From Listeria seeligeri serovar 1/2b str. SLCC3954 (GTDB lineage Bacteria; Bacillota; Bacilli; Lactobacillales; Listeriaceae): a stretch of 64,000 nt of DNA. Made by a program: the position numbers and the translations under genes. Under the pieces are notes generated by a model that saw only the letters and a list, made by a program, of their open reading frames with translations, made no database searches and was not told where the DNA came from. The stretch covers positions 2,356,001 through 2,420,000 of the forward strand of contig NC_013891.1 of the NCBI RefSeq assembly GCF_000027145.1. Reading direction: 5' to 3'. Shown in pieces: positions 11,606 through 47,976 of this stretch (position 1 is the stretch's first letter; each line of letters starts with the position of its first letter).

Positions 11606-11932
11606 TTACATTGTCGCTGAGTAGCCGCGATCCGTCATTACTTGGTAAATATCTTTCAACCGCGGATTTCCTTCTGCTATAATTTCACCATCAACAACAA
11701 TCACTGGATACATATAGTCCTCATCAACAATCTTATTCGCCATATCCGCAAGCTCTGTTGTATTTGGCGGATTAAATATATCCACATACTCCACTACAAA
11801 TGGTTGATCAGAAAACTTCCTACCAATAGCCGCCCGAAGCCATTCCTCGGTCTCTTTCGAGGATGGCGCTCCGACACAACTCGCACAAATAGTCGTTGAA
11901 CCATATACATATAACTTTGCTTCATTTACCAT
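11606..11932 (-). CDS. YuzD family protein (DUF1462), thioredoxin-like
   Basis: 108-aa protein of the DUF1462/YuzD family with a thioredoxin-like fold. The sequence YGSTTICASCVGAPSSKETEEWL shows a CxxC pair near the N-terminus, and a YPVIVVDGEIIAEGNPRLKDI segment resembles the cis-proline loop of redoxins. Function is unknown. The start is placed at ATG 11932; a GTG one codon upstream is equally compatible with the AGGTGA Shine-Dalgarno. It is the first gene of a likely two-gene unit with the DUF1450 gene. Confidence 0.88.
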   Translation of the reverse strand: MVNEAKLYVYGSTTICASCVGAPSSKETEEWLRAAIGRKFSDQPFVVEYVDIFNPPNTTELADMANKIVDEDYMYPVIVVDGEIIAEGNPRLKDIYQVMTDRGYSATM

Positions 11933-12039
11933 CACGCTTCACCTCACTATCATTGTACAAAAACCTACCCAAAAAAGCGACTATGCTGTTTCACTTTAGT
12001 ATAACTATTAAATTTCATGAATTTTTATAAAGCTAAGAA

Positions 12040-12068
12040 TTGACACAAATTTCTAGATATATTATAAT
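12040..12068 (+). promoter_or_regulatory. consensus sigma-A promoter
   Basis: TTGACA (12040-12045), 17-bp spacer, TATAAT (12063-12068). Both hexamers match consensus exactly, and it is the strongest promoter I found in the window. It does not precede a protein gene, and points into the putative small RNA. Confidence 0.88.
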
Positions 12069-12074
12069 ATTTCC

Positions 12075-12259
12075 AATACATTGTATTTCTTTAACGCTGT
12101 GATGTATTATCGAAATAAATTTATTTGGTTGTACCCGTGATTTCACGGTCAACATATAAGTAACACTCCCTTTAACAATTGGGCGCGCAACCCAATTGTC
12201 TTTCAACCTTACCAGTTGAAAGAGCACGTTCCTTTCTGAGCCTTAGGAACGTGTTTTTG
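12075..12259 (+). ncRNA. putative small regulatory RNA (~185 nt)
   Basis: Begins about 7 bp after a perfect promoter and ends at an intrinsic terminator (CACGTTCCT/AGGAACGTG then TTTTT, 12225-12258). Between them are hairpins CCGTGA/TCACGG (12135-12148), CAATTGGG/CCCAATTG (12176-12198, 7-nt loop) and CTTTCAAC/GTTGAAAG (12200-12222, 7-nt loop). The linker ACTCCCTTTAAC (about 12164-12175) is CU-rich and predicted unpaired. It could pair with purine-rich ribosome-binding sites, as Listeria LhrC-type RNAs do. No reading frame with a ribosome-binding site was seen. I do not recognise it as a named RNA. Confidence 0.7.
12225..12258 (+). terminator. intrinsic terminator of the putative small RNA
   Basis: Nine-bp stem CACGTTCCT/AGGAACGTG with an 11-nt loop, followed by five T residues. 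Confidence 0.88.
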
Positions 12260-12262
12260 TTT

Positions 12263-12570
12263 GGCCCGTTCGAAGCAAAGCGAGTTACGGGCCAAATATG
12301 CATGCGAGCAACGCGAGCATGTAATCCTTCAGCACCTCACACCCCAAAAAACCTAACCTATCTAATTCCGGCCCGTTCGAAGCAAAGCGAGTTACGGGCC
12401 AAATATGCATGCGAGCAACGCGAGCATGTAATCCTTCAGCACCTCACACCCCAAAAACCTAACCTACCTAATTCCGGCCCGTTCGAAGCAAAGCGAGTTA
12501 CGGGCCAAATGTGCATGCGAGCAACACGAGCATATAATCCTTCAGCACCTCACACCCCAAAAACCTAACC
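12263..12570. repeat. three-copy tandem repeat, 106/107-bp period
   Basis: Near-identical units start at 12263, 12370 and 12476; the last is about 95 bp. Each unit holds a stem GGCCCGT/ACGGGCC closing a GAAGCAAAGCGAG loop, then a second stem built on CATGC/GCATG, then a C- and A-rich spacer. The period is not a multiple of 3 and no frame stays open meaningfully, so it is not coding. It starts directly after the small-RNA terminator. Confidence 0.92.
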
Positions 12571-12645
12571 AAACTTCATCCAGATCGTCCCAAACAAAAA
12601 ACGCACCCTAAAAAACCAATCCCTTCCCATTTTCCATTATCCTGT

Positions 12646-12651
12646 TATAAT
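12646..12651 (+). promoter_or_regulatory. probable promoter of the NifU-like gene (-10)
   Basis: TATAAT (12646-12651) preceded by TG one base upstream (extended -10), with TTCCCA (12624-12629) as a weak -35 at 16 bp. Confidence 0.55.
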
Positions 12652-12692: not shown

Positions 12693-12929
12693 ATGGAAGA
12701 AATTAGTTATGCCGAAGTTGATAAAGCCTTAAAAAAATTCCGCCCCTTCCTAGTCCGTGACGGTGGCGATTATGAACTTGTGGAAGTAACTCCAGACGGT
12801 ACCGTAAAGATTAAGTTACTTGGCGCATGTGAGACTTGCCCAAGCTCTGATATGACATTAAAGATGGGAATTGAGCTAACTTTAGCTGAAAAAATCATTG
12901 GATTCAAAGAAGTTGTGCAAGTTTTTTAG
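12693..12929 (+). CDS. NifU-like iron-sulfur scaffold domain protein (YutI type)
   Basis: 78-aa protein consisting only of the NifU C-terminal domain. Cys46 and Cys49 (GACETCPSS) are the [4Fe-4S]-ligating pair. It is probably an iron-sulfur carrier that delivers clusters made by the Suf system encoded further along in this window. The Shine-Dalgarno AAAGGAGAG precedes the ATG. It is transcribed alone, with its own extended -10 promoter and terminator. Confidence 0.93.
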   Translation: MEEISYAEVDKALKKFRPFLVRDGGDYELVEVTPDGTVKIKLLGACETCPSSDMTLKMGIELTLAEKIIGFKEVVQVF

Positions 12930-29529: not shown

Positions 29530-29711
29530 GTATACAAAAAGCCTTTCTGCTGATGAGCAGAAAGGCAGCATTTTTTCAAATGGACTAACTTCCTTCTCAT
29601 CTTTCAGAACAAATTACTGTTCTGCATGACTTAGCACCTTAAACGAATAAAGAATTATTGTTTAGGTTGCTGGGTTTCATAGGGCATTTCCCTCCACCAC
29701 TCTGGATAAGA
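29530..29711 (-). promoter_or_regulatory. S-box (SAM-I) riboswitch of metNIQ
   Basis: On the minus strand the leader begins CTTATCCAGAGTGGTGGAGG and continues with GCCCTATGAAACCCAGCAACC, the diagnostic SAM-I aptamer core. It ends in a terminator GCCTTTCTGC/GCAGAAAGGC (29541-29566) followed by a T run. A long alternative antiterminator segment lies between. SAM binding should stop transcription before metN. By position it matches the L. monocytogenes element reported to act also in trans on prfA (SreA); whether it does so here is not shown. Confidence 0.95.
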
Positions 29712-29723
29712 TTTCTAAATATT

Positions 29724-47586: not shown

Positions 47587-47609
47587 CTTTTTCATTCTTC
47601 TTCTAAAAG

Positions 47610-47976
47610 TGGAGATGGTGGGAGTCGAACCCACGTCCAGAAATATCGGCACTTAAATATCTACGAGCGTAGTCACCGTATTAGTATTTCGCATAAACAT
47701 CAGCCCGGTAACAGGCTTCCATTCAGCTAGTCTGATTAAGCTCTTCTAACTAACCCCAGACGGAGATTATTTAGTGTAGCCCACTTAAAGTGAGACCCTT
47801 ACCGTAGCACATGGGCGATGCACGGAGGATCAGCTATGCTACTGCTTATTAGGCAGCGAAAGCTAGGTTTTGTTTTTCTTTGCCAGTTATTATTGGCTTT
47901 GACGTTGATAACGAGGACGATCCCCCCGACTCGCAACTCAAGCTCGAACTATCCCTGTCGAATCCGTAACATCCCC
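47610..47976 (-). ncRNA. ssrA: transfer-messenger RNA (tmRNA)
   Basis: On the minus strand it starts GGGGATGTTACGGATTCGAC and ends with GGGTTCGACTCCCACCATCTCCA, the two halves of the tRNA-Ala-like domain. The internal frame encodes the tag GKEKQNLAFAA-stop (with the tRNA-borne Ala in front). The length of about 367 nt is standard. The 3' CCA is not fully encoded (CATCTCC-A-C-TTT), so the end must be completed by nucleotidyltransferase. It works with SmpB, encoded about 10 kb away, to rescue stalled ribosomes. Confidence 0.98.

Follow-up and report, generated by a model that had tools for sequence, protein, structure and literature searches.

Background

The nearest described counterparts of the RNA reported here are the LhrC family of Listeria (LhrC1-5, Rli22 and Rli33-1; Rfam RF00616), whose mRNA partners are lapB, oppA, tcsA and lmo0484. 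As described in PMC4132741, PMC5880928 and PMC8079631, LhrC pairs with Shine-Dalgarno regions through CU-rich sites; the linker site is given as the weakest of the three by which LhrC4 acts on lapB (PMC4132741), and stress control is attributed to LisR or sigma-B (PMC5880928). In the published accounts available, members are 105-121 nt long with two stem-loops and carry at least two UCCC motifs, one in loop A and one in the single-stranded CU-rich linker between the stem-loops, with a third in the terminator loop of LhrC1-5. RsaE, RNAIII, SprD and FsrA, named in PMC4132741 as UCCC sRNAs of low-GC bacteria, share with the present RNA an unpaired C-rich motif that would suit pairing with Shine-Dalgarno regions; the present RNA differs in matching no Rfam model and in being confined to Listeria as far as the searches went.

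Published work on L. monocytogenes also describes a transcript, anti2394-5, that bears on this locus. Two forms detected on tiling arrays, RNA1 (216 nt) and RNA2 (693 nt), are listed in a review table (PMC4374534), and anti2394-2395 is classed as a long asRNA in PMC4179725. Northern confirmation of three asRNAs spanning more than one ORF is mentioned in PMC3179153, where anti2095, anti2325 and anti2394 are named in context; as we read that passage, anti2394 is one of the three. The source cited in all three articles is Toledo-Arana 2009.

Promoter, predicted transcript and fold

The window is the whole 64-kb stretch of DNA that was analysed, and coordinates are positions within it. A sigma-A type promoter, TTGACA-17-TATAAT, lies at 12040..12068 (+), with the -35 hexamer TTGACA at 12040-12045, a 17-nt spacer and the -10 hexamer TATAAT at 12063-12068; it is the sole exact match in the window, where 0.03 would be expected by chance. 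From the positions of this promoter and of an intrinsic terminator, together with the fold score given below, a transcript of ~184 nt was predicted at 12075..12258 (+), both of its ends being predictions. Its variable 5' part would lead into hairpin H1 and an open linker, after which come H2, H3 and the terminator. H1 (12128..12153, +) is formed by the helices GUUG/CAAC (12128-12131/12150-12153) and CCGUG/CACGG (12135-12139/12144-12148). The linker AACACUCCCUUU (12162..12173, +), which contains the only UCCC of the predicted transcript, is conserved, mostly unpaired and proposed as the mRNA-pairing seed. It is followed by H2 (12175..12199, +; helix 12175-12183/12191-12199), H3 (12200..12222, +; helix 12200-12207/12215-12222) and the terminator (12223..12259, +), an 11-pair stem (12223-12233/12245-12255) with an 11-nt loop and then T's. 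The motif TGAGCCTTAGG (12237-12247, +) covers the terminator loop and its closing pairs.

The fold had a minimum free energy of -52.3 kcal/mol, whereas shuffled sequences averaged -32.8 (z -5.31; 0 of 200 shuffles equalled it). The reverse strand likewise folded well (z -3.81, one shuffle equal), as expected of hairpins. Mean unpaired probability of the linker CTCCC was 0.97 in the window sequence and 0.49-1.00 across 14 folded sequences, the linker being about half paired in locus L010 (0.49). A long-range pairing of the 5' part (GUUACU/AGUAAC) appeared in some g3 folds (L023, L026) and was not general. A terminator scan of the window did not list the terminator at 12223-12259, because its 11-nt loop exceeds the scanner's 8-nt limit.

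The earlier note, made from the letters of the window, had claimed an exact sigma-A consensus, well-formed hairpins with a clean intrinsic terminator and a single-stranded linker, and all of these were borne out. Its further claim, that the stretch holds no protein frame, was nearly right: one TTG ORF of 129 aa is present at 12179-12568 (+), crossing H2, H3 and the terminator into a downstream tandem repeat, and was taken as chance. The repeat itself (106 bp, 2.9 copies, with a palindromic head) occupies 12263-12570, directly after the terminator, and related-looking sequence stands 3' of the RNA in some relatives (L011-L013).

Distribution across genomes

BLAST with the window sequence alone (E <= 0.001) gave matches in 28 of 36 Listeriaceae genomes; 15 places (the window's own included) were full or nearly full length and the remainder short. 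Both AACACTCCCTTT and the linker AACACUCCCUUU were present in all 30 homologous places, a 31st locus (L002, a 19-nt match) having been left out as a non-homologue. At E <= 1 the window's own genome (2,797,636 bases) contained one full match and one 19-nt chance match. A two-motif pattern (AACACTCCCTTT plus TGAGCCTTAGG) was found in 29 of the 36 family genomes, once in each, and a reversed control gave 0; the linker is present in these 29 loci by construction, its motif being part of the pattern. A covariance model built from 15 sequences recovered the same 29 genomes at E <= 5e-18, as expected of a model trained on 15 of them, plus two weak others. Neither of the latter was taken as an orthologue: the match in G002 (E 0.083) is a terminator, and that in G023 (E 0.04) overlaps a 49.5-bit LhrC match.

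The RNA was absent from five g1 genomes (G003, G009, G016, G023 and G025) and from both g2 genomes; in all seven, neither AACACTCCCTTT nor TGAGCCTTAGG occurred on either strand of the nifU locus +/-1.5 kb. Among 395 genomes of the order, which include the 36 family genomes and were searched under stricter filters, the 29 known matches and one further match were returned. A candidate relative outside Listeria, G187 (E 3.9e-5), was rejected as a terminator look-alike lacking the UCCC linker. In contigs of named genomes, a scan that may leave out records near the window's genome, the exact pattern occurred in 17 stretches, all titled Listeria; viral contigs gave 0 matches. The pattern was also seen in two plasmid records (L078 and L079, one of 2.9 Mb) and four phage records (H3-H6) of L. 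monocytogenes material, which look like chromosomal sequence under other labels.

The promoter was present in 29/29 loci, a count that leaves out the second loci of two genomes (L030, L031). Both hexamers were exact in 21 of them (20 with the 17-nt spacer, L029 with 18), and the other 8 had a -10 of TATACT, one base off.

Conservation and covariation

Across 15 close relatives, invariant columns made up 97% of the RNA core (12128-12257), 90% of the promoter, 73% of the neighbouring yuzD gene, 71% of the upstream spacer, and 51% each of the 5' part of the RNA and of the downstream sequence. AACACTCCC and TGAGCCTTAGG were invariant in the 15-row alignment. The covariation score was 0.503, against 0.217 for shuffled alignments and at most 0.136 for slid partners, with the alignment made from sequence alone and the structure derived from that same alignment. 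Paired cells amounted to 94.9% (79.7% when shuffled), and 12 of 21 pairs had changed on both sides, which 8 of 500 shuffles reached. By element, the inner stem of H1 persisted in 95% of cells (15 sequences; 2/4 pairs changed on both sides), H2 was paired in 88.9% of cells (5/6) and the terminator stem in 98.2% (5/11). L019 and L029 have an H1 of different sequence and register, and H3 is a gap in the g3 rows.

A failure of the hairpins to be conserved had been named beforehand as a possible refutation of the sRNA; the check was run, and the stems covary and the hairpins are kept. The stand-alone sRNA gene that the earlier note proposed has strong support: the locus is conserved in single copy together with its promoter, its stems covary and its unpaired motifs stay fixed. 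The locus has its own promoter and terminator, a structure kept by covariation and independence from the downstream gene, and it is a real, conserved, stand-alone sRNA gene. The fixed TGAGCCTTAGG atop a covarying stem makes the terminator loop a second fixed element besides the linker, one that the earlier note had missed.

Comparison with LhrC and target searches

Rfam 15 contains no model that matches the sRNA, and a search with RF00616 that allowed E values up to 10 found nothing at 12040-12259, the four LhrC matches of the same genome lying elsewhere. Within the window, Rfam matches over cut-off were confined to a SAM riboswitch (29594-29712, -) and tmRNA (47607-47976, -). Like LhrC, the sRNA is found in Listeria, ends in an intrinsic terminator and has a mostly unpaired linker between stem-loops; this linker has ACUCCCUUU in common with LhrC sequences. 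The longer ACTCCCTTT is common to linker and LhrC as AAACTCCCTTTTTGACC in the window's genome and as TTAACACTCCCTTTTTGACCAG in G035, where the LhrC place scores 102.9 bits, below the 110-bit Rfam cut-off. Against the two or three UCCC motifs of LhrC the sRNA has one, against 105-121 nt it has ~184, and against several copies it has one; it also has extra hairpins (H1, H2 and H3 besides the terminator), a different terminator loop and a consensus promoter. By the tests made, the sRNA is not an LhrC member, and it may nevertheless work like LhrC. Its sigma-A consensus promoter suggests, as far as sequence can tell, control other than the stress type exercised by LisR or sigma-B.

LhrC matches were also counted in ten hand-chosen genomes at E <= 0.01, weak matches included and one genome (G025) being fragmented: G003 had 9, G009 9, G016 7, G025 11 and G023 6 (g1 genomes without the RNA), and G000 had 4, G020 5, G010 8, G011 4 and G035 7 (genomes with it). 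L089 contains, at 1719-1824 (G023:C1:1885218-1885323), a divergent RNA that resembles LhrC and has the motif CUCCCUUU three times (49.5 bits against the 110-bit cut-off).

Complements of the linker with one mismatch numbered 16 in the window's own genome and 16 in the reversed control, and AAGGGAGT before ATG numbered 14 in both. In five other genomes the latter exceeded its control (G020 14/8, G017 20/15, G010 17/6, G012 31/9, G035 27/14), an excess that a Shine-Dalgarno-like pattern might give anyway. Thirty loci with one-mismatch complement sites were looked at, six of them from the window's own genome. A sugar-binding-protein gene at G000:C1:156200 is the one candidate target: its start region in this genome pairs at -17.2 kcal/mol, whereas 49 Shine-Dalgarno-like starts in the window average -9.9 and reach -16.9 at best, but the candidate was picked by complementarity and its pairing energy is therefore not an unbiased test. 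After L209, which begins mid-gene, had been dropped, 13 candidate orthologues had a start region; nine have GGAGTGTT (seven at -17.2, one at -13.7 and one at -19.0) and four have GGAGCGTT, a mismatch (-13.3). Since complementary sites show no excess over control in the window's own genome, the proposed mechanism rests on motif and analogy, not on targets. The sequence AACACTCCCTTTAAAG...CTTTAAAGGGAGTGTT forms an inverted repeat in L131 (G010:C8:22300-23300), at a distance of ~4.6 kb from the RNA.

Gene neighbourhood and alternative readings

The divergent neighbour of the RNA is a yuzD-like gene (11606-11935, -); in 29/29 loci and in the L. monocytogenes locus L079, yuzD is encoded on the other strand at 184-228 nt from the linker. 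A nifU-like gene (12693-12929) lies downstream in the window. The downstream gene varies: 18 loci have nifU at a distance of 80-527 nt, in 11 it falls outside the 1.5 kb fetched, and in L079 an internalin-like gene intervenes, which puts nifU at 2,886 nt. That the RNA is a leader or attenuator of the downstream gene is thus very improbable, the gene changing while the RNA stays constant; a promoter-like site (12624-12651), separate from the promoter of the sRNA, moreover precedes nifU, and the locus matched no known riboswitch in Rfam. The 693-nt form listed for L. monocytogenes (PMC4374534) speaks for such a reading; readthrough of the terminator could produce a form of that kind.

The L. monocytogenes transcripts raise the other question, that of antisense action. 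In strain NCTC7974, yuzD and an internalin-like MucBP gene flank the same sequence; one annotated hypothetical minus-strand ORF overlaps the RNA and a second one follows. A cold-stress paper ties an internalin-like gene to lmo2396 and ltrC to lmo2398 (PMC5491136), and by order the two minus-strand ORFs therefore fit lmo2394 and lmo2395. By gene order, strand and rough length (216 nt listed, ~184 nt predicted), the sRNA has probably been detected already in L. monocytogenes as anti2394-5 and filed as antisense, a point missed earlier: the statement that it matches no named RNA is right for Rfam 15, but a transcript that fits is described in the literature. On the other refutation named beforehand, the lack of a transcript, anti2394-5 gives an answer that is indirect only. 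The top-20 antisense table of PMC5491136 has no entry attributable to the locus, and nothing on it appears in the text available from PMC3911899.

As filed in the reviews (PMC4374534, PMC4179725, PMC3179153), the RNA would be a cis-antisense regulator of the small opposite-strand ORFs, lmo2394/lmo2395 in L. monocytogenes. We judge this improbable. The annotated ORFs of NCTC7974 are in its favour, as is a frame with the same end point in 15/29 loci; in the other 14, however, its stop TAA, which falls at the linker, is AAA, and no ORF of at least 40 aa ends there. Four of the 14 (L021, L022, L024, L025) have ORFs of 65-97 aa in other frames across the RNA, none of which shares the frame of the first, which implies that such frames arise easily. 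Where the opposing ORF is present, its conservation is confined to the stretch that faces the RNA, and N-terminal portions beyond the RNA vary from species to species. With an opposing frame in 15/29 loci only, a conserved opposite-strand gene was not found, and antisense control would leave the covarying stems and fixed unpaired motifs unexplained. The simplest reading is that the opposing ORFs are shadows of a conserved RNA. The filing of anti2394-5 as cis-antisense is at odds with conservation and structure, which favour a stand-alone sRNA, and the absence of the opposing frame from 14/29 loci led us to read the RNA as trans-acting.

It is also unlikely, if less remote, that the action of the RNA depends chiefly on a protein bound at the terminator loop and not on pairing with mRNA. 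TGAGCCTTAGG is fixed on a covarying stem, and in 5 of 6 genomes the RNA gene itself was the only place with its exact 10-nt complement; protein binding would leave unexplained the equally fixed linker that is shared with LhrC. A long antisense partner for the loop was considered and rejected on the same search at 10 exact bases (G017 had one more site), and so was a homodimer joined through kissing contacts between terminator loops, since 913 of 2000 shuffles self-pair as well as the near-palindromic loop does. The loop may contact a protein or offer a short seed of 7-8 nt.

Proposed action and implications

The reading we favour, with some confidence, is that of an independently transcribed, trans-acting base-pairing sRNA, conserved in most Listeria genomes searched, whose UCCC linker pairs with Shine-Dalgarno regions. 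Promoter, structure, conservation, covariation and the shared motif were computed here; trans action, Shine-Dalgarno targets and a role for the terminator loop are what we infer. The strong sigma-A promoter would give a ~184-nt RNA ending at the intrinsic terminator, and the flanking hairpins would hold the linker open. Its UCCC core would then pair with A/G-rich Shine-Dalgarno regions and block translation, as the CU-rich sites of LhrC do; the fixed terminator loop would be a second contact, for which a protein or short pairing is likelier than a long antisense partner. Pairing of this kind to ribosome-binding sites, which had been suggested beforehand by analogy with CU-rich Listeria sRNAs, is the best candidate mechanism on the evidence because the linker has its motif in common with LhrC. 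Counting against the favoured reading are the single UCCC (two or three in LhrC), the half-paired linker of L010 and the absence of the RNA from five g1 genomes. The equal numbers of complementary sites and control sites in the window's own genome, the mismatch in four of 13 candidate orthologues and the weakness of the LhrC4 linker site on lapB count against it too.

A more specific proposal, which we consider doubtful, is that the sRNA is made constitutively and independently of LisR and acts as a partner of the LhrC regulon. Its two fixed contacts, an LhrC-type UCCC linker and a private protein site in the terminator loop, would set a baseline for the mRNAs that LhrC represses under stress. 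The five g1 genomes without the RNA keep LhrC, at 6-11 places against 4-8 in five genomes with it.

This RNA, with a core conserved more strongly than the protein gene beside it, appears in the literature searched only as an antisense transcript. Filing it instead as an sRNA would make a search for targets sensible, and the motif that it has in common with LhrC shows where such a search might begin.
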